Position numbers and translations under genes: made by a program. This document shows positions 14,192 to 22,330 of a stretch of 64,000 bases of DNA, in pieces. Each line of letters begins with the position of its first letter. Within the stretch, counting starts at the first letter, position 1. Source of the stretch: Dehalococcoidia bacterium (GTDB taxonomy: Bacteria; Chloroflexota; Dehalococcoidia; Bin125); assembly GCA_022826965.1 (NCBI GenBank), contig JAJDTU010000009.1, positions 1-64,000 on the forward strand, given 5' to 3'. Under the pieces are notes generated by a model. The model did no database searches and had not been told where the DNA came from. It was given only the letters and a program-made list of their open reading frames with translations.

Positions 14192-16438
14192 TCACGCGCG
14201 CCAGCGGTTGAGTCGTAGCGCGTTCGTCAGCACCGAAATCGAACTGGCCACCATCGCGAGAGCAGCCGCGATCGGTTCGAACTGGCCGCGATCTCCGAAC
14301 AACCAGACCAGACCGCCGGGGACGCCTCCGACTGCGTCGAATATCGGCACGGCCAGGCCGGCTGCGAGCGGGATCAGCAGGATGTTGTAGCCGAATGCAA
14401 AGGCGAGATTCTGGCGAATCACGCGGCGGGTAGCTCTCGCCAGCAACACGGCTTCGGCCGCGCGCCGCGGATTGGATTGCATCAGCGCGACCTGGGCCGT
14501 TTCGAGCGCAATGTCGGAGCCGCTCCGCATCGCCAGCCCGAGGTCTGCCTGGGCCAGCGCCGGCGCGTCGTTGATGCCATCCCCGACCATCGCTACTCGC
14601 CGTTGCTCCGATTGCAGTCTCGAGATGACCTCCGCTTTGTCGGTCGGCAGCACGCGAGCGTGCAAACGCTCAATGCCCATCGCCCGGCCGATCGCTTCCG
14701 CGGCCGGCTCAGTATCGCCGCTGATCAGCGCCTGTTCGAACTCTCGGCGATGCAGCAGCTCGACCGCCTCGCGAGCGCTGTTCTTTGGCTGATCCGTAAG
14801 CCGAACGACGCCGAGCAACTCGCCGTCGCGAGCGACGTACACGGGAGTTGCAGCGCCCTCATTCTCGTTCACGGGCACGGACAGCTCCCTCATCAAGCGC
14901 AGACTGCCGACGGCAATCTCTCGGCCATCCACGCCCGCAGTCGCCCCACTGCCTGGTCGTGCCCGGAAGTTGGTGACTTCGGCGAGGTCTATCCCGCGCT
15001 CTTCGGCATGGGCCACGATCGCTTCCCCAAGTGGATGCTCCGAGTGACGTTCCACCGATGCGGCCAGTCTGATCAGTTCCGCCTCCGACACTGCGTTCGC
15101 CTCAATCGAATCAACGTCGTGACGACCCGTTGTCAGGGTGCCCGTCTTGTCCCAGGCGACCGTGTCAATGCGGCCGGCGGCTTCCAGCGCTTCAGCGTCT
15201 CGGAAGAGGATGCCCAGTCGGGCGGCGCGGCCCGAGCCCGCCGCGATCGCGGCAGGCGTCGCCAACCCCAGGGCGCAGGGGCAGGCGACGACCAAGACCG
15301 CGACGGAACTGAGCACCGCGGATGTCCAACTCGCACCGTCGCCGAATACCGCCCAGGCGATGAAGGTGACAATCGCGATCAACACGACGATCGGGACAAA
15401 GACACCGGCGATCCGGTCTGCGAGACGCTGAACAGGCGCTTTCGATGCCTGCGCCCGCTCGACCGTCTGCGTGATTCGAGCCAGCGTCGTCTCCGAACCG
15501 ACCTGGGTAGCGCGGTACGTAAAGGCGCCATCGAGATTGAGCGTCCCCGCGAATACATCGTCTCCGACGGACTTGCCGACCGGCACGCTCTCGCCGGTCA
15601 ACATCGATTCATCGACCGAGCTGTCACCGGCGGCGACCACACCATCGACGGGAATCTGCTCGCCGGGCCGCACCCGCACGCTGCCACCGATGGCAACATC
15701 GGAGGCGGGAATGTCACGCTCGAGCCCGTTCTCTACGACGCGAGCCGTCTGTGGAGCGAGTTCGAGCAGTCGCGTTAGAGCCGCCGCGGCGCGCAACCGG
15801 ACCCTGGCCTCCAGGGCCCGACCGAGGCTGACGAAGCCGACGATGATCAGCGCCGTGTCGAAGAACACATCGCGCGACGCGTCCGCACCTTCCAGCACGC
15901 TTGGGGCGAGTGCCGAGACTGCGCTGTAAGCCCAGGCGGCGGCCACACCGAGGACGATCAGGGTGTCCATGTCCGTGGACCGGCGCGAAGCCGCAAGCGC
16001 CGCCCGCCGAACCATCGGCCACAGACCCCAGGCCAGGGTGGGCGTTGCGACGGCGAAGAAGATCGGGAAGATGAGGTCTTGATTCCAACCAAGCTCGGCC
16101 CAGCGATTCGCCTGCATCGCAAAGAAGATCCCCCAGCCGGAGACCAGCGCCGGCAACGCTCGGCTGAGTTGTCGACGGATGTCCACGGAGTCGGCTGCGG
16201 TCTCCTCAGTCCCCTCGTCGACCAGCTCATACCCCGCGCCGCTAATGGCGGCGGTGACGCCAGCGTCGTCCAATACGCCGTCGAGCTCGATGATCGCGCG
16301 TCCGGCAATGAAGTCCGCAGATGCCTCGGAGACGCCGTCAACCTTGACCAGCGCACGCTCCACACGGCGCACGCAGGCGGCGCAATGCATGCCGTCGATT
16401 CGCAGGGTTTGGGTCTGAGGTTCGGCCGCCGTCGTCAT
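14192..16438 (-). CDS. copA: Copper-type P1B ATPase
   Basis: A 748-residue heavy-metal pump from the ATG at 16438, which has a TGAGGG ribosome site; the longer frame to 16483 would run into the divergent gene. One N-terminal HMA domain carries [12 protein letters not shown], the Cu(I)-binding CxxC. Downstream are TGESVPV (actuator domain), the intramembrane [10 protein letters not shown], the phosphorylated Asp in DKTGTLT, the SEHPLGEAI motif typical of P1B pumps, and [14 protein letters not shown] motif with this HMA type indicates Cu(I)/Ag(I) export. About eight membrane helices are expected. No copper chaperone or CopY/CsoR-type regulator is adjacent. Confidence 0.93.
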
Positions 16439-16481
16439 GACCCTCAGCATATGTGTCTCGGGTTGGCGATAGTCTGAGGCC

Positions 16482-17705
16482 ATGCCACGCGTGATGCTGC
16501 TGATTCCGACCGCTTCCTACCGCGCCCCCGATTTTATGTCGGCAGCCGACAAGCTGGGGCTTGATGTGGTGGTCGCTTCGGACGTCGATCAGCCGTTGGC
16601 CGACATGTATCCGGGACGCTGGCTGACCCTGCCCTATCACGACATCGAACGAGGGGCTCAGGCTGTTGCGCGCTACGCCGACCGCTTCCCGCTCGACGCA
16701 GTGGTGGCGGTCGACGATCCCGGCACGATCCTGGCGGCGCATGCCAGCTCCGAGCTCCAGCTCTCCGGCAATAGCCCTGAATCCGTCGTCGGGACGCGGG
16801 ACAAGTCCGAACTGCGACGAGCGCTTGATGCAAACGGGGTTCGATCGCCCGGATGGCAGGTCTGTCGATTTGCCGACGAACCGCCGATTGATGCGCTGGA
16901 CTTCCCCGTCGTCGTCAAGCCGCTCGGTCTCAACGGCTCGCGGGGAGTGATGCGCGCAAACGACGAAGCATCGTTCCGCAACGCGATCGCCCGACTGCAG
17001 CGTCTGCTTGGAACCAGAGCGGCAGCCGAGGAGTGCGGGGAACTCGCCGATCGGTACCTCGTCGAGGGATTCATCCCAGGAGTCGAAGTGGCGGTCGAAG
17101 GCCTCTTGACAGATGGCGAATTGCACACGCTGGCAGTGTTCGACAAACCGGATCCTCTCGATGGGCCATTCTTCGAGGAGACAATCTACGTCACGCCCTC
17201 CCGGTTGCCCGAGGAGCAGATTCAGGAAGTCGTCCAGACCGCGCGGCGTTCGGCAGAAGCGCTCGGCCTCCACGACGGACCGTTACACGCAGAGTTGCGG
17301 CTTAACGAAGACGGCGCCTGGCCCGTCGATGTCGCAGCCCGGACGATTGGCGGCCTGTGCGCCCGAACCCTGCGCTTCGGTGCCGGGATGTCGCTCGAGG
17401 AAATCGTCTTACGGCACGCGATCAATGCGCCGCTCGAGACGCTGAATCGCGAGACACGCGCCGCCGGCGTGATGATGATGCCAATCGTCGGTCGGGGCAG
17501 AATCAAGGCAATTCTCGGCCTGGACGAGGCTGCTGCCGTGCCACTCGTCGAAGACATCGAGATAGAGGCAAGGGTCGGCGACATGCTGATCCCGCTGCCC
17601 GAGGGTGCAGACTATCCCGGCTTCATCTTCGCCAGGGGCGAAGACCCAGCCGAAGTCGAGTCGGCGCTGCGACAGGCCTGGTCGAAGATCGAGTTCGTCC
17701 TCTAA
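16482..17705 (+). CDS. ATP-grasp carboxylate-amine ligase-like protein
   Basis: A 407-residue single ATP-grasp enzyme. The N-terminal region (residues 1-100) is a Rossmann-like preATP-grasp fold. The ATP-grasp core includes [17 protein letters not shown] (ATP-binding Lys and glycine loop), a [16 protein letters not shown] segment, and [20 protein letters not shown] with the Mg-binding acidic/Asn positions, then GGLCARTL. The C-terminal part (about 330-407) is like the cap of carnosine-synthase and BtrJ-like ligases. The substrate is unknown; the family joins a carboxylate to an amine using ATP. It diverges from the copper ATPase, 43 bases away. Confidence 0.85.
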
Positions 17706-17710
17706 CCGAC

Positions 17711-19087
17711 TCAGACCCCTTCCTCTCCGGTACGCTGCGGCGCCGGCCGTGTGACCAGCGGGCTCACAGTCCGGGCGAGCAGCGCTCTCGGCGGTTTGGC
17801 GAAGTACACGGGGATGATGGCAGCGAAGGTGAGAATCGCGACGAGGGTCAGTGGAGCCTCGTACGAGCCGGTCGCATCCTCGAGGGCTCCAATCATCAAC
17901 GGGCCGAAGCCGCTGGCAATCTGCGTCGCCATCGCGATCAGGCCGTAGATCGCTCCAAAGCTGACATAGCCGAACACATCTGACGTGAGCAGCGACTGCA
18001 GCATGTACACGTTGCCGATGGTGAAACCAAAGATCAGGATGGCTACGTAGGTCACCGCAATGTGTTCGACCTGGATGACCACCAGAGCCGCCGCGCCCTG
18101 GACGAGGAACATGATCACCGTCAGGATGCGCAGGTCGACCCGATCGGCGAAGTAGCGCCCGACGATCAGCCGCGCCACGATGCTGCCGAACGCGATGATC
18201 GAGAGACTCGTTGTCGCCGCGGTGAGCGAGCCGACCCGCTCCTGCACGAACGCGGTCTGGTGCAAGATGAACCCGGTCTGAGCGAGCAGCACAATCACGA
18301 AGCTGACCATGATCGACCAGAAGGAGAGCGTTCGCGCCGCGCCGCGGATGCTCCAGCGCCGAGTCTGATTAGCAACTGATCGAGCCACGCTCGTGCGCTG
18401 AGGGGCGACCGGCTCCAATCCGTCTTGTGGCAAGCCCATCTGACGCGGATCCCAAACAAGCACAAACGCCACGATCGGAAGCCCGACCAGCAGGATCAGG
18501 CCGGCCATCGCGGGTGTCGCGACTCCGAGACCAAACTGTTCGATCAGCACGCCGTTGACGGGAGACAGCACGACGCCGCCGAGGGACACACCAGTGGAGG
18601 AAATCGCCATCGCCCAGGCCCGGCGATGAACAAACCAGCGCGCAAGGGTCGCATTGACGGCGACACCGGCGCTCATCCCCGAGCCGAGCGCCATCACGAC
18701 GTAGGCGAGATAGAGCTGCCAGAGCTCCGTGACATGCCCGATCGCGGCGGCCGCGGCGATCAGCAGAATCAGGCCCGGCATCATCCATATGCGTGCGCCG
18801 TGCCGGTCGATGAGCGGACCGACCAACGCGGACGTGATGCCGGAGAAGACGAAGTACATCCCGGTTGCCAGCGACACATCGCTGTTCGACCAATCGTGCA
18901 GCTCCCTCAGCGGCCCCAGGTAGACCGCAATGCCGTAGTAGCCCACGCCGACCGAGACAAATAGCAGCCCTGCGCAGGCGAACACAATCGCCCAGCCGTA
19001 GTAGACGTTGGCCGGCCACAGACGCGCCGCCAGCGGCCGATGGGGCGGCAAGTCGAAGGGCTCACGGGAATTCGTCTGAGCGGACAA
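17711..19087 (-). CDS. MFS transporter, monocarboxylate/oxalate-formate type
   Basis: A 458-residue major facilitator with twelve predicted membrane helices. The first begins at NVYYGWAIVFACAGLLFVSV, a form common in MCT and oxalate/formate antiporter carriers. The loop between helices 2 and 3 has LIDRHGARIW, the MFS motif. A long basic loop near residues 225-245 separates the halves. Such carriers move small carboxylates by proton symport or exchange; the substrate cannot be read. The frame begins with TTG, and no better start is visible. It ends five bases from the convergent ATP-grasp gene. Confidence 0.85.
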   Translation of the reverse strand: MSAQTNSREPFDLPPHRPLAARLWPANVYYGWAIVFACAGLLFVSVGVGYYGIAVYLGPLRELHDWSNSDVSLATGMYFVFSGITSALVGPLIDRHGARIWMMPGLILLIAAAAAIGHVTELWQLYLAYVVMALGSGMSAGVAVNATLARWFVHRRAWAMAISSTGVSLGGVVLSPVNGVLIEQFGLGVATPAMAGLILLVGLPIVAFVLVWDPRQMGLPQDGLEPVAPQRTSVARSVANQTRRWSIRGAARTLSFWSIMVSFVIVLLAQTGFILHQTAFVQERVGSLTAATTSLSIIAFGSIVARLIVGRYFADRVDLRILTVIMFLVQGAAALVVIQVEHIAVTYVAILIFGFTIGNVYMLQSLLTSDVFGYVSFGAIYGLIAMATQIASGFGPLMIGALEDATGSYEAPLTLVAILTFAAIIPVYFAKPPRALLARTVSPLVTRPAPQRTGEEGV

Positions 19088-19189
19088 AGCCGATTCAGCA
19101 TATGACCGACGCGGCGCCGTCCTGCATCGGATAGCTGACTAGACTGCCTGCGAGTCAGGCTTCCGGCAGACGAACCAGAGGAGTTGCAG

Positions 19190-20317
19190 ATGGCCGAACG
19201 ACGGACTGGATGGGTCTACCACGAGTCCTACATGTGGCACGACACGGGCAGGACTCGCGCCTTCGACCCCGAACTGCGGCGTTGGATGCAGGCCTGGGAA
19301 CACTGGGAGAACCCCGACACGAAGCGTCGATTCAACAACTTGCTGGAGGTCTCCGAGTTTTCCGAGGAGTTGGTGCCGCTCAAGCCGCGCCCGGCAAATC
19401 TCGAGCAGGTGCTCCGCTTTCACACGCCGGATTACGTCGATCGAGTCCGCGAACTCTCCGCCGGCGACGGCGGCGACGCGGGAGAGGGCTCCCCGTTCTC
19501 CCATGGCGGCTACGAGATCGCACTGTTGGCCGCGGGAGGCACAATCACGGCGGTCAACGCCGTGCTCGATGGTGATGTCGACAACGCCTACGCGCTCGTA
19601 CGGCCGCCCGGACACCACGCCGAGCGCGATCGCGGGCGCGGCTTCTGCGTCTTCGGCAACGTCGCCATCGCCGCGATGCACGCGCTGGCGGAGCGCGGGA
19701 TCGACAGGGTCGCGACGTTGGATTGGGACGTCCACCACGGCAACGGCACCCAGCAGGCCTTCTACGACCGCAACGACGTGCTGACCATGTCGATCCACCA
19801 GGACCAGTGGTATCCCCGAGACAGCGGCCGGATGGACGAACAGGGCGAGGGCGAGGGAGACGGCTACAACATCAACATCCCGCTGCCGCCCGGCAGCGGC
19901 CATGGAGCCTATGTCGAGACGATCCGACAGGTCGTCGTGCCGGCACTACAGGCCTTCCAACCTGACCTCATCCTCGTCCCGTCCGGATTCGACGGCGGCA
20001 TGTACGACCCGCTCGGTCGGATGATGGCCTACTCGGAAACCTTCCGCGAGATGACCCGGTTGCTCATGGAGGCATCGGACGAGCTTTGTTCAGGTCGCTT
20101 GGTCCTGAGCCACGAAGGCGGCTACAGCCCGACCTACGTCCCCTTCTGCGGCCTGGCCGTGATGGAAGAACTCAGCGGCCGGCGGTCGATCGCTGGAGAC
20201 CCGTTCGAGGACAACTCGGCCACCGCCGGAGGTCAGGATCTGCAGCCACACCAGCAGGCGGTGCTGGACGACGCAAGGTTGCTGGTCGATCGGCTGCGCC
20301 GGCTCGAGGGGGTCTAG
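19190..20317 (+). CDS. Class II histone deacetylase-like amidohydrolase
   Basis: A 375-residue zinc amidohydrolase of the arginase/deacetylase fold. Visible motifs are RPPGHHAERDRGRGFCVFGN (the tandem catalytic His and charge relay), LDWDVHHGNGTQ (zinc Asp and His), and VPSGFDGGMYDPLG (second zinc Asp). Bacterial relatives remove acetyl groups from polyamines or other small amides rather than histones. The ATG at 19190 is preferred over a TTG six bases earlier because GAGGAG stands seven bases before it. Its TAG stop shares a CTAG palindrome with the stop of the selenoprotein frame coming from the other side. Confidence 0.92.
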   Translation: MAERRTGWVYHESYMWHDTGRTRAFDPELRRWMQAWEHWENPDTKRRFNNLLEVSEFSEELVPLKPRPANLEQVLRFHTPDYVDRVRELSAGDGGDAGEGSPFSHGGYEIALLAAGGTITAVNAVLDGDVDNAYALVRPPGHHAERDRGRGFCVFGNVAIAAMHALAERGIDRVATLDWDVHHGNGTQQAFYDRNDVLTMSIHQDQWYPRDSGRMDEQGEGEGDGYNINIPLPPGSGHGAYVETIRQVVVPALQAFQPDLILVPSGFDGGMYDPLGRMMAYSETFREMTRLLMEASDELCSGRLVLSHEGGYSPTYVPFCGLAVMEELSGRRSIAGDPFEDNSATAGGQDLQPHQQAVLDDARLLVDRLRRLEGV

Positions 20318-21693
20318 CTCTCGATCGGAACGATGGCTCCGGGGTCTCCGGAAGAGCTGAGGGGAGCCAACTGGTCCCCGGTTGGCTCCGCTCAACAAAA
20401 CCAGTCTTCGGTCAGGCCGGGCCGATGGACGTGCGGCGCGGCCACATCAGGCCAGGGCTCCACTTCGAGCCGTCTGCAAGCGGCATCCTTGATCTGCGCG
20501 AACGTTGCCTGGCGCTCCGCCAGTCCGGCAATCTCGCCCTGCAGATCGTCCATCCGCGCGTCTTCGTGCCGCCAGTTCCAGGTGAGGCCGTCCCTGTCGT
20601 AGGTCGTCAACGAACCCATCTCGCGCATCGGATCGACCAGTGGAGAGTCCGAAGGAACGAGCAGCCGCAATCCCAGTTGGACCGGCGGCGTCACGTCCAC
20701 AAGCTTCCGAGTCTCAACGAATCGAAGCAGGTCACGGAAGTGCGCCGGCGTGGTCCAGGGAGTGAACGGCAGCCACGTGGGTCTGAGGGCGATGCCTGCC
20801 CGTTCTGTATGTTGCAGCACGAGATCGAGGTCGTCGGCGGTATGGCCCTTGTCCAGTATCTCGAGCAGGCGGTCATCGATCGACTCAAACGCCGACGTGA
20901 TGAACGTGACCCCGAGTTCGGCCATCTCGGGGAGGAGTTCCTGATGCTCGATCAGGTGCTCAACCTTGATTGTCGTGTCGAACGTGGTGCCCGGATGCTG
21001 TCCCGACGTCTCGCGCAACAGATCCATCGCAAGTCCCGGCGCGTTGAGGAAGTCGGGATCGCCGAACGTGATGTGCTCCGCCCCGGCCAGAACTTGCTGG
21101 TCGATATCGGCAAGCACGGTGTCGGCGCCGTTGAGCCGCAGTCGTCCTGCGTAGATCGGCGTCAACGGGCAATGCGTGCACCGATGCGCGCAGCCGCGCG
21201 TGGCCTCAACGTAGCCCGCGACGTGAGAGCCGCCGGAAACGTCTCGATATCTCGCGTACTGCTCCAGCGGGGGCAAGATCGAACGATTCGGCACAGGGCG
21301 TAGCTCACGGTCGAACAGCGGCACATGGGACGCGTCCTCGCCCCCAGCGAGTCCGACGAGCTGCAGATCGGTGTCGCCGCTGATCGCTCGGCCCAGGCCG
21401 AGATCATGGAGCGAACTGGCCGCATGGCCGTAGAAGACGACCTTGTCTGACATCCCCGTCAGTTGTCGGGCGATCCGGATGCCAAGTCGGGCGGCGGTGT
21501 GCATCGGCGTCGAGATGCCGATCAGATCCGCTGCTACCGAAGCGGCATGCAATCGATCCGAACTGACCGATTCGACGGCGAGATCGAACGCGGAGACCTT
21601 GTGCCCCGCGGCAGTCAACGCGGCGGCCGGCGCAGCGATACTGAGCGGCTGGTGGCCTTGCTCGTAGGTCGAGATCAGCAGGACGCGCGCCAT
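20314..21693 (-). CDS. B12-binding/radical SAM selenoprotein with CUAEP tail
   Basis: A conventional reading gives 433 residues ending WFC at a TGA (20392-20394). Reading that TGA as selenocysteine extends the protein by 26 residues to a TAG at 20314-20316, giving Cys433-Sec434-Ala-Glu-Pro and a Pro/Ser-rich end. The N-terminal 130 residues look like a cobalamin-binding Rossmann domain (RVLLISTYEQGHQ, DLIGISTPMHTA). The radical SAM core has CAHRCTHC (CX3CX2C for the 4Fe-4S cluster) near residue 170, with GDPDFLN and FITSAFES strands. I know of a radical SAM family named for a CUAEP or CCAEP tail, whose function is not established. A hairpin directly after the TGA fits a bacterial SECIS element. 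The reaction catalysed is unknown. Its leftward neighbour upstream is an NfuA-like Fe-S carrier that could supply the cluster. Confidence 0.88.
20363..20389 (-). promoter_or_regulatory. Probable bacterial SECIS hairpin
   Basis: Two bases after the TGA, on the minus strand, GGAGCCAAC (20389-20381) pairs perfectly with GTTGGCTCC (20371-20363). The nine-base loop can add two G:C pairs, leaving a GGA triloop. A stem-loop just 3' of an in-frame UGA, inside the coding region, with G residues at the apex, is the layout of bacterial selenocysteine insertion elements read by SelB. Confidence 0.75.
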
Positions 21694-21721: not shown

Positions 21722-22330
21722 CTACTTCTTCGACGGCTTGTAGTACGGGTTGTCCCCCGACTGGTGGTCGGTGATATCGATCAACTCGTCGATTTCCGGG
21801 AGCTGTTCCTTGACCGCGACCTCGATGCCCTGTTTCAGCGTGACGTTGGCCATGCCGCAACCCTGGCAACCGCCGCCCATCTCGATGTAGGCCTTACTGC
21901 CCTGGACATCGAGGAGCTGCACGAACCCGCCGTGCGCAGCAATCTGTGGGTTGACCTGCTCGTCGAAGATCTTCTGGATGGCGAAGGCCAGCGGGTCGCG
22001 CCAGACAGGATTCGGGTTGTTGAACTCGAGCCCGGAGACGTTCGGCCCCTTGAACTCATAGTGAACCTCGGTGCCGCGTAGGTCTTCGATCCGCTCGCCC
22101 TCAACGTAGAGGACGAAATCCGGGTAATCGGCGGTGGCATCGCCTTCCGGTTCGTAGCCCTTCTCGACGATCGTCAGCACGTGCTCGAATCCGTTCGACG
22201 TGCGTCCGGTGATCTTGAGTCGCAGCCCGGCGACCTCCTCCGGATAACCGGTCAACACCTCTACCAGTTTCGACCGCGCAATCTCGGAAAATGTGATGCC
22301 TAGATCGCCTGTTGGCGCGTCGGTCGTCAT
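21722..22330 (-). CDS. nfuA: NfuA-like Fe-S cluster carrier protein
   Basis: A 202-residue protein with two domains. Residues 8-105 form an A-type (HesB-like) fold, recognisable by ITFSEIARSKLVEVL and YPDFVLYVEGERIEDL, apparently without the usual Cys ligands. Residues 115-190 form a NifU C-terminal domain with GGGCQGCGMANVTLKQGIE, whose CxxC pair bridges a 4Fe-4S cluster in the dimer. This layout is that of NfuA, which delivers clusters to target enzymes. Its place just upstream of the radical SAM selenoprotein gene, 28 bases apart and on the same strand, suggests that enzyme is a client. Confidence 0.88.
   Translation of the reverse strand: MTTDAPTGDLGITFSEIARSKLVEVLTGYPEEVAGLRLKITGRTSNGFEHVLTIVEKGYEPEGDATADYPDFVLYVEGERIEDLRGTEVHYEFKGPNVSGLEFNNPNPVWRDPLAFAIQKIFDEQVNPQIAAHGGFVQLLDVQGSKAYIEMGGGCQGCGMANVTLKQGIEVAVKEQLPEIDELIDITDHQSGDNPYYKPSKK

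Follow-up and report, generated by a model that had tools for sequence, protein, structure and literature searches.

The Radical SAM Gene and Its In-Frame TGA

The window analyzed here is a stretch of 64,000 nucleotides (nt) from a Dehalococcoidia bacterium of the Chloroflexota (assembly GCA_022826965.1, contig JAJDTU010000009.1, positions 1–64,000), and the gene in question lies on its minus strand at 20314–21693, where it encodes a CUAEP-type radical S-adenosylmethionine (SAM) selenoprotein of 459 amino acids. The reading frame begins at ATG 21693–21691 and closes at TAG 20316–20314, a stop codon contained in a CTAG in which it overlaps the stop of the convergent gene at 19184–20317. Codon 434 (20392–20394), directly after Cys433, is a TGA read as selenocysteine (Sec434). 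An earlier note, made from the sequence alone, had described a frame that arrives at WFC-TGA and continues as Cys-Sec-Ala-Glu-Pro with 22 further residues before a TAG; its coordinates are right, the gene lying on the minus strand and the tail from Cys433 being CUAEPTGDQLAPLSSSGDPGAIVPIES with 22 residues between CUAEP and TAG. The CX3CX2C motif of the radical SAM cluster (C168, C172, and C175; 21169–21192, minus strand) is invariant in alignments A1 and A4, and profile searches returned the radical SAM domain (PF04055, 42.4 bits) and, in the N-terminal domain, a B12-binding score (PF02310, 28.6 bits) below the cut-off of 32.1. Outside CX3CX2C, residues 433 and 434 are the only invariant cysteine-type positions in the homologue alignments; Cys433-Sec434 is by this comparison shown to be an invariant C-terminal pair.

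The homologues, 144 in number and from more than 10 phyla, were taken from a search of the phylum, from fetched regions, and from a scan of a genome collection. All 144 carry W-[FY]-C-[U/C]-[A/S]-E-P, of which 92 have Sec (TGA) and 52 a Cys codon at the variable position, and the congeners read WFCUAEP like the window protein; the extraction pattern itself demanded U or C at the Sec position, and it was unmatched in only 3 of the 120 fetched loci. Aligning the tails, the check that the earlier note had proposed, places CCAEP of the Cys-type homologues exactly at the Sec position. A tree of 88 non-redundant proteins requires 17 changes between Sec and Cys, and well-supported branches force no fewer than 10 of these. 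The idea that Cys forms arose through loss of the Sec machinery is not supported, since selA is retained in 42 of the 44 Cys-type genomes. Some Cys-type members (L023–L028) have a longer tail with extra Cys-Cys pairs (..SSCCGVGG) behind CCAEP.

A hairpin of the selenocysteine insertion sequence (SECIS) type, with the apical loop AGUU, occupies nt 16–34, with the T of the TGA as nt 1 (20361–20379, minus strand), its stem formed by nt 16–22 paired with 28–34. Among 58 Sec homologues, 83.5% of the stem cells are paired, and 88 double changes were counted against a shuffled mean of 34.6 (0 of 500 shuffles as high); the covariation score is 0.541, compared with 0.204 in shuffles, and pairing is destroyed when the partner is slid by one base. 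In Cys homologues the same positions stand at background, with 2.4 of 5 core pairs formed vs. 4.5 of 5 in the Sec forms (Mann-Whitney p 2e-11). The window's copy, which folds at z −4.2, contains one C-C mismatch or 1-nt bulge in the stem that is also found in other members. Folding energy of lone sequences (means −17.2 for Sec and −14.7 for Cys tails) is a poor discriminator, whereas position-specific covariation separates the two.

The genome search for selA, selB, selC, and selD, likewise proposed beforehand, recovered all four from the organism's own genome: selA (522.9 bits, contig C11), selB (347.5 bits, contig C4), tRNA-Sec (selC; 70.2 bits, anticodon TCA, contig C2), and selD (351.9 bits, C12:264989–265930, locus L169). 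The last has one in-frame TGA, in CGGUGSK, and its product is predicted to be a selenoprotein itself. Because selA occurs in 322 of 400 genomes sampled from the phylum, its presence is a necessary but not a specific sign. Together, four independent lines, namely the U or C conserved among homologues, the covarying hairpin, the Sec machinery, and the in-frame TGA of selD, show by comparative evidence that codon 434 encodes selenocysteine in a CUAEP-family radical SAM protein, as the earlier note had supposed, and that the hairpin just behind the TGA directs the insertion. A genuine stop codon or an error, with the tail untranslated, is scarcely tenable: the gene would indeed end at WFC if no Sec were inserted, and nothing else speaks for that reading, which is contradicted by the U/C-AEP motif kept in the 144 homologues, the SECIS covariation, and the complete Sec machinery.

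Family Membership and Predicted Fold

The earlier note had pointed to a radical SAM family named for a CUAEP/CCAEP tail; this family exists as NF040546, a model that names no function. The window protein matches it over model positions 1–467 of 468 (465.5 bits, E 1.8e-139), a score that, like those of its congeners (465–479 bits), does not reach the cut-off of 500 bits. It shares with the family the full-length profile match, the invariant tail, the Sec/Cys alternation, and a single clade that unites it with all CUAEP proteins (support 99–100); it differs in its score, in the long branch of its genus, and in the 22 amino acids that its tail extends beyond CUAEP. By the tree, the genus belongs inside the CUAEP family despite the sub-cut-off score, the cut-off serving automatic naming. 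The gene is, on these grounds, a divergent new member of a family already named in NCBIfam, and its pathway context is the new part.

CUAEP proteins were found in 99 of the 400 genomes sampled from the window's phylum and at no fewer than 579 loci in the genome collection, the latter figure being a lower bound. Their hosts, which include at least two named isolates, among them Thermomicrobium roseum (Sec type) and Dictyobacter arantiisoli (Cys type, L134), belong to Chloroflexota, Thermomicrobiota, Rokubacteria, Acidobacteria, Planctomycetes, Actinobacteria, Nitrospirae, KSB1, Myxococcota, Gemmatimonadetes, Bacteroidetes, Ignavibacteria, and Rhodospirillales. A search of the available literature for CUAEP and RCCLKC tails (the latter described below) found no paper, and CUAEP is missing from the 119 prokaryotic selenoprotein families tabulated in 2026 (PMC13188914). 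Annotation loses such tails: as the earlier note anticipated, the coding sequence listed for Thermomicrobium roseum stops exactly at the Sec TGA, and the window's genus falls under the family cut-off.

An AlphaFold2 model built from 88 relatives has a mean predicted local distance difference test (pLDDT) score of 93.7, with ~91 for residues 421–430 and 79 for 431–440. The closest solved fold is that of AprD4 (PDB 6fd2; VIA Z 27.9, root-mean-square deviation 3.5 over 394 residues), followed by OxsB (Z 25.6), MgmA (24.8), TsrM (23.5), and MiaB (22.4); RimO (~22) is also among the matches. AprD4, OxsB, TsrM, MgmA, and MiaB share the predicted fold with CUAEP at only 11–19% identity and act on other substrates; to our knowledge, none of these five has a C-terminal Cys-Sec tail. 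CUAEP would bring this pair into radical SAM chemistry.

An Amino-Acid Ligase and an Iron Carrier Accompany CUAEP

An ATP-grasp L-amino-acid ligase is encoded on the plus strand at 16482–17705. It has the ATP-grasp_4 (PF13535) and LAL_C2 (PF18603) domains in common with the L-amino-acid ligase BL00235 (PDB 3vot), which it matches at 1e-43. A ligase of this kind is present in 97 of the 99 CUAEP genomes vs. 33 of the 301 others in the phylum sample (Fisher 4e-61, with kinship among the genomes ignored), and the two CUAEP genomes that gave no match are fragmented assemblies. Neighbors were counted at 121 CUAEP loci after open reading frames had been filtered for overlaps so as to remove shadow frames in GC-rich DNA, and since many contigs end nearby, the counts are lower bounds. 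The ligase lies near CUAEP in 69 of these loci. Twelve of the sampled genomes have the ligase and gave no CUAEP match (L172–L183); the neighbor of the ligase is NfuA in 11 of them and YggX, together with a formyltransferase, in 1. Ligase and iron carrier therefore constitute a unit by themselves. A gene for a copper-type P1B ATPase (14192–16483) and the ligase gene start back to back with a 2-nt overlap, a pairing seen at the level of the genus.

Directly upstream of the CUAEP gene, 28 nt away on the same strand (21722–22330, minus strand), is the iron-sulfur (Fe-S) cluster carrier to which the earlier note had drawn attention, and the two genes are probably co-transcribed. The carrier matches PF01106 (72.6 bits); as TIGR03341 gives 102 bits where its cut-off asks for 269, it is called NfuA-like. 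Among the 121 loci, the neighbors include NfuA (~42), formyltransferase (25), YggX (24), DUF169 (18), and, in one clade, LipB/LipA, which adjoin CUAEP in 9. No locus has both NfuA and YggX within 6 kb (0 of 121, p 1.6e-5), and one or the other stands beside CUAEP in over half of the loci. In Bacteroidetes and Ignavibacteria loci (L138 and L151) CUAEP lies within a SUF operon and in KSB1 (L099) near sufS/sufU; the genes of these contexts (sufD, sufS, sufU, sufT, and HesB) were named by reading their sequences and not by profile search. These associations define a set made up of CUAEP, the ligase, and either NfuA or YggX as a carrier of iron or Fe-S clusters, and they show, as an association among genomes and loci, that CUAEP works together with the other two.

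Kinship with ArsL

After NF040546, the next characterized family matched by the window protein is NF040542 (ArsL), at 243.4 bits, short of the cut-off of 450; all other families score 42 bits or less. In the tree, CUAEP is monophyletic beside ArsL, an enzyme that moves the 3-amino-3-carboxypropyl (ACP) group of SAM to arsenic (PMC8552651); this transfer was the subject of a 2024 in vitro study cited in PMC12159101. When four ArsL proteins are aligned with CUAEP, Cys-Sec is matched by the Cys pair of their terminus, RCCLKC, and many more invariant residues are common to both families across the fold. The likeness thus comprises the sequence-predicted fold, shared invariant residues, and a C-terminal Cys pair, and several ArsL loci also possess an ATP-grasp and a major facilitator superfamily (MFS) gene. 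The RCCLKC terminus itself is not in the window protein, where the Cys pair is the only part held in common, and CUAEP further differs in having Sec instead of Cys and Fe-S neighbors instead of arsenic genes.

No gene for ArsM, ArsR, ArsQ, or ArsN1 adjoins CUAEP in the 121 loci, in which a weak ArsM-like match was found once and an ArsB-like match three times. Arsenic is not supported as the CUAEP substrate, the arsenic genes of ArsL loci being essentially absent near CUAEP. An ATP-grasp gene is present in 3 of the 4 ArsL plasmid loci examined. Orthology of the CUAEP and ArsL ligases is unsupported at ~20% identity. The clusters with an RCCLKC tail and an ATP-grasp gene are on plasmids of Alicyclobacillus, Priestia, and Pantoea (L166, L167, and L168), two of which also carry MFS and ArsM genes; the ATP-grasp gene there suggests peptide-linked arsinothricin-like products.

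Lysine-Rich Tails of the Carriers

The NfuA-like protein ends in a C-terminal extension, NPYYKPSKK (21725–21751, minus strand), which is absent from the NfuA of Escherichia coli and Pasteurella; both of these end at the Tyr-Tyr that precedes the units of small residues and Lys, and the proteins of Acinetobacter and Polaromonas have no such units. NfuA and YggX, unrelated carriers that exclude each other beside CUAEP, both end in units of small residues and Lys. Such an end was found near CUAEP in 37 of 40 NfuA and 24 of 25 YggX vs. 45 of 459 other genes there, counts that are descriptive because the pattern was noticed before the counting. The units are sometimes repeated (PYYQPAKG..HHQPAKGGPQFTPAKG; SKGGGGAPQSKGGGGGAPRRK). 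NfuA or YggX proteins next to CUAEP or the ligase at L082, L071, L079, L068, and other loci have tails in ..PYYQPSKK or repeated AKG/SKG. The YggX-like proteins of ligase-free relatives have no tail; E. coli YggX nevertheless ends in Asp-Lys-Lys. The Nfu proteins of ligase-free genomes are mostly of other Nfu subtypes and so form an imperfect control. This pattern, which is mostly missing from the controls compared, suggests that the tails may be modified, possibly as a modification tag.

Proposed Function and Alternatives

As a whole explanation built on the Sec identity and the ligase/carrier set, we favor an ArsL-like mechanism, to which we give a probability of roughly one half. CUAEP would use the scaffold and the way of working of ArsL as a SAM-cleaving enzyme, and the Cys-Sec pair at the end of the C-terminal tail would hold a soft atom (sulfur, selenium, or a metalloid) or form part of an auxiliary Fe-S cluster. 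Selenium would make the pair a stronger ligand for the soft atom, and one more reversible to oxidation, than Cys-Cys. The product may be an amino acid resembling methionine or glutamate, which the ligase would join to a second amine, and NfuA, YggX, or the SUF proteins would supply clusters, a provision needed if the cluster is damaged or consumed. A widespread selenoenzyme family to which no function is assigned would in this way gain a testable pathway, in which an ArsL-type enzyme acts with an amino-acid ligase and a carrier of iron or Fe-S clusters, in bacteria whose arsenic context is slight or lacking. Several considerations weigh against this proposal. Substrate, product, and ACP chemistry are all deduced from homologues of ~30% identity; the near-absence of arsenic genes implies that the substrate of ArsL has not been carried over; with ligases as distant as those of the two systems, the parallel between them may be convergent; the test that links ligase to CUAEP takes no account of kinship; and the Fe-S neighbors may mean no more than that the enzyme depends on clusters and its hosts are aerobes.

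Mammalian thioredoxin reductase, with its C-terminal Gly-Cys-Sec-Gly, is the model for a different reading, possible if doubtful, in which Cys-Sec, carried on a mobile tail, acts as a redox relay and, after each turnover, reduces either a bound substrate or the active site itself, the radical chemistry being of the ordinary 5′-deoxyadenosyl kind. Adjacent Cys and Sec on a C-terminal tail would suit this role, as would the further Cys-Cys pairs of some Cys-type members (L023–L028), and most prokaryotic selenoproteins are thought to be redox-active (PMC13188914). However, the invariance of E436 and P437 in the tail motif and its fairly good pLDDT in the model would be more in keeping with a fixed site than with a swinging arm, the same Cys pair is present in ArsL, which places a soft atom in its site, and the conserved neighbors at the 121 CUAEP loci include no conspicuous gene for a reductase or a thioredoxin-type protein. 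A soft-element or Fe-S-related role fits the context and the ArsL kinship at least as well as a redox center does.

The carriers also invite comparison with lipoyl synthase, an enzyme that sacrifices its auxiliary cluster and is supported by NFU-type carriers (PMC9585516 and related papers), a parallel to the NfuA/YggX/SUF context of CUAEP. Cys-Sec would then help bind an auxiliary Fe-S cluster that is cannibalized as a sulfur source and rebuilt by these proteins after each turnover, and the ligase would use the thiolated amino acid. LipB-LipA beside CUAEP at the 9 loci of one clade and MiaB and RimO among the fold matches (Z ~22) are in keeping with sulfur insertion. We nevertheless regard it as rather unlikely: Cys433 and residue 434 are the sole invariant cysteine-type positions beyond the radical SAM motif, the auxiliary clusters known so far usually have three Cys, and we know of no delivery of clusters by YggX. 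Improbable, finally, is a new protein-modification system in which the ligase would attach an unusual amino acid, made by CUAEP from SAM, to the lysines of the carrier tails.

Other Genes Beside CUAEP

Two genes that lie between the ligase and CUAEP in the window recur at 10 loci each, all within the window's genus. A histone-deacetylase-fold hydrolase (19184–20317, plus strand; PF00850, 292.9 bits) is convergent with CUAEP, and an MFS transporter (17711–19087, minus strand; PF07690, 115 bits) is possibly an exporter.
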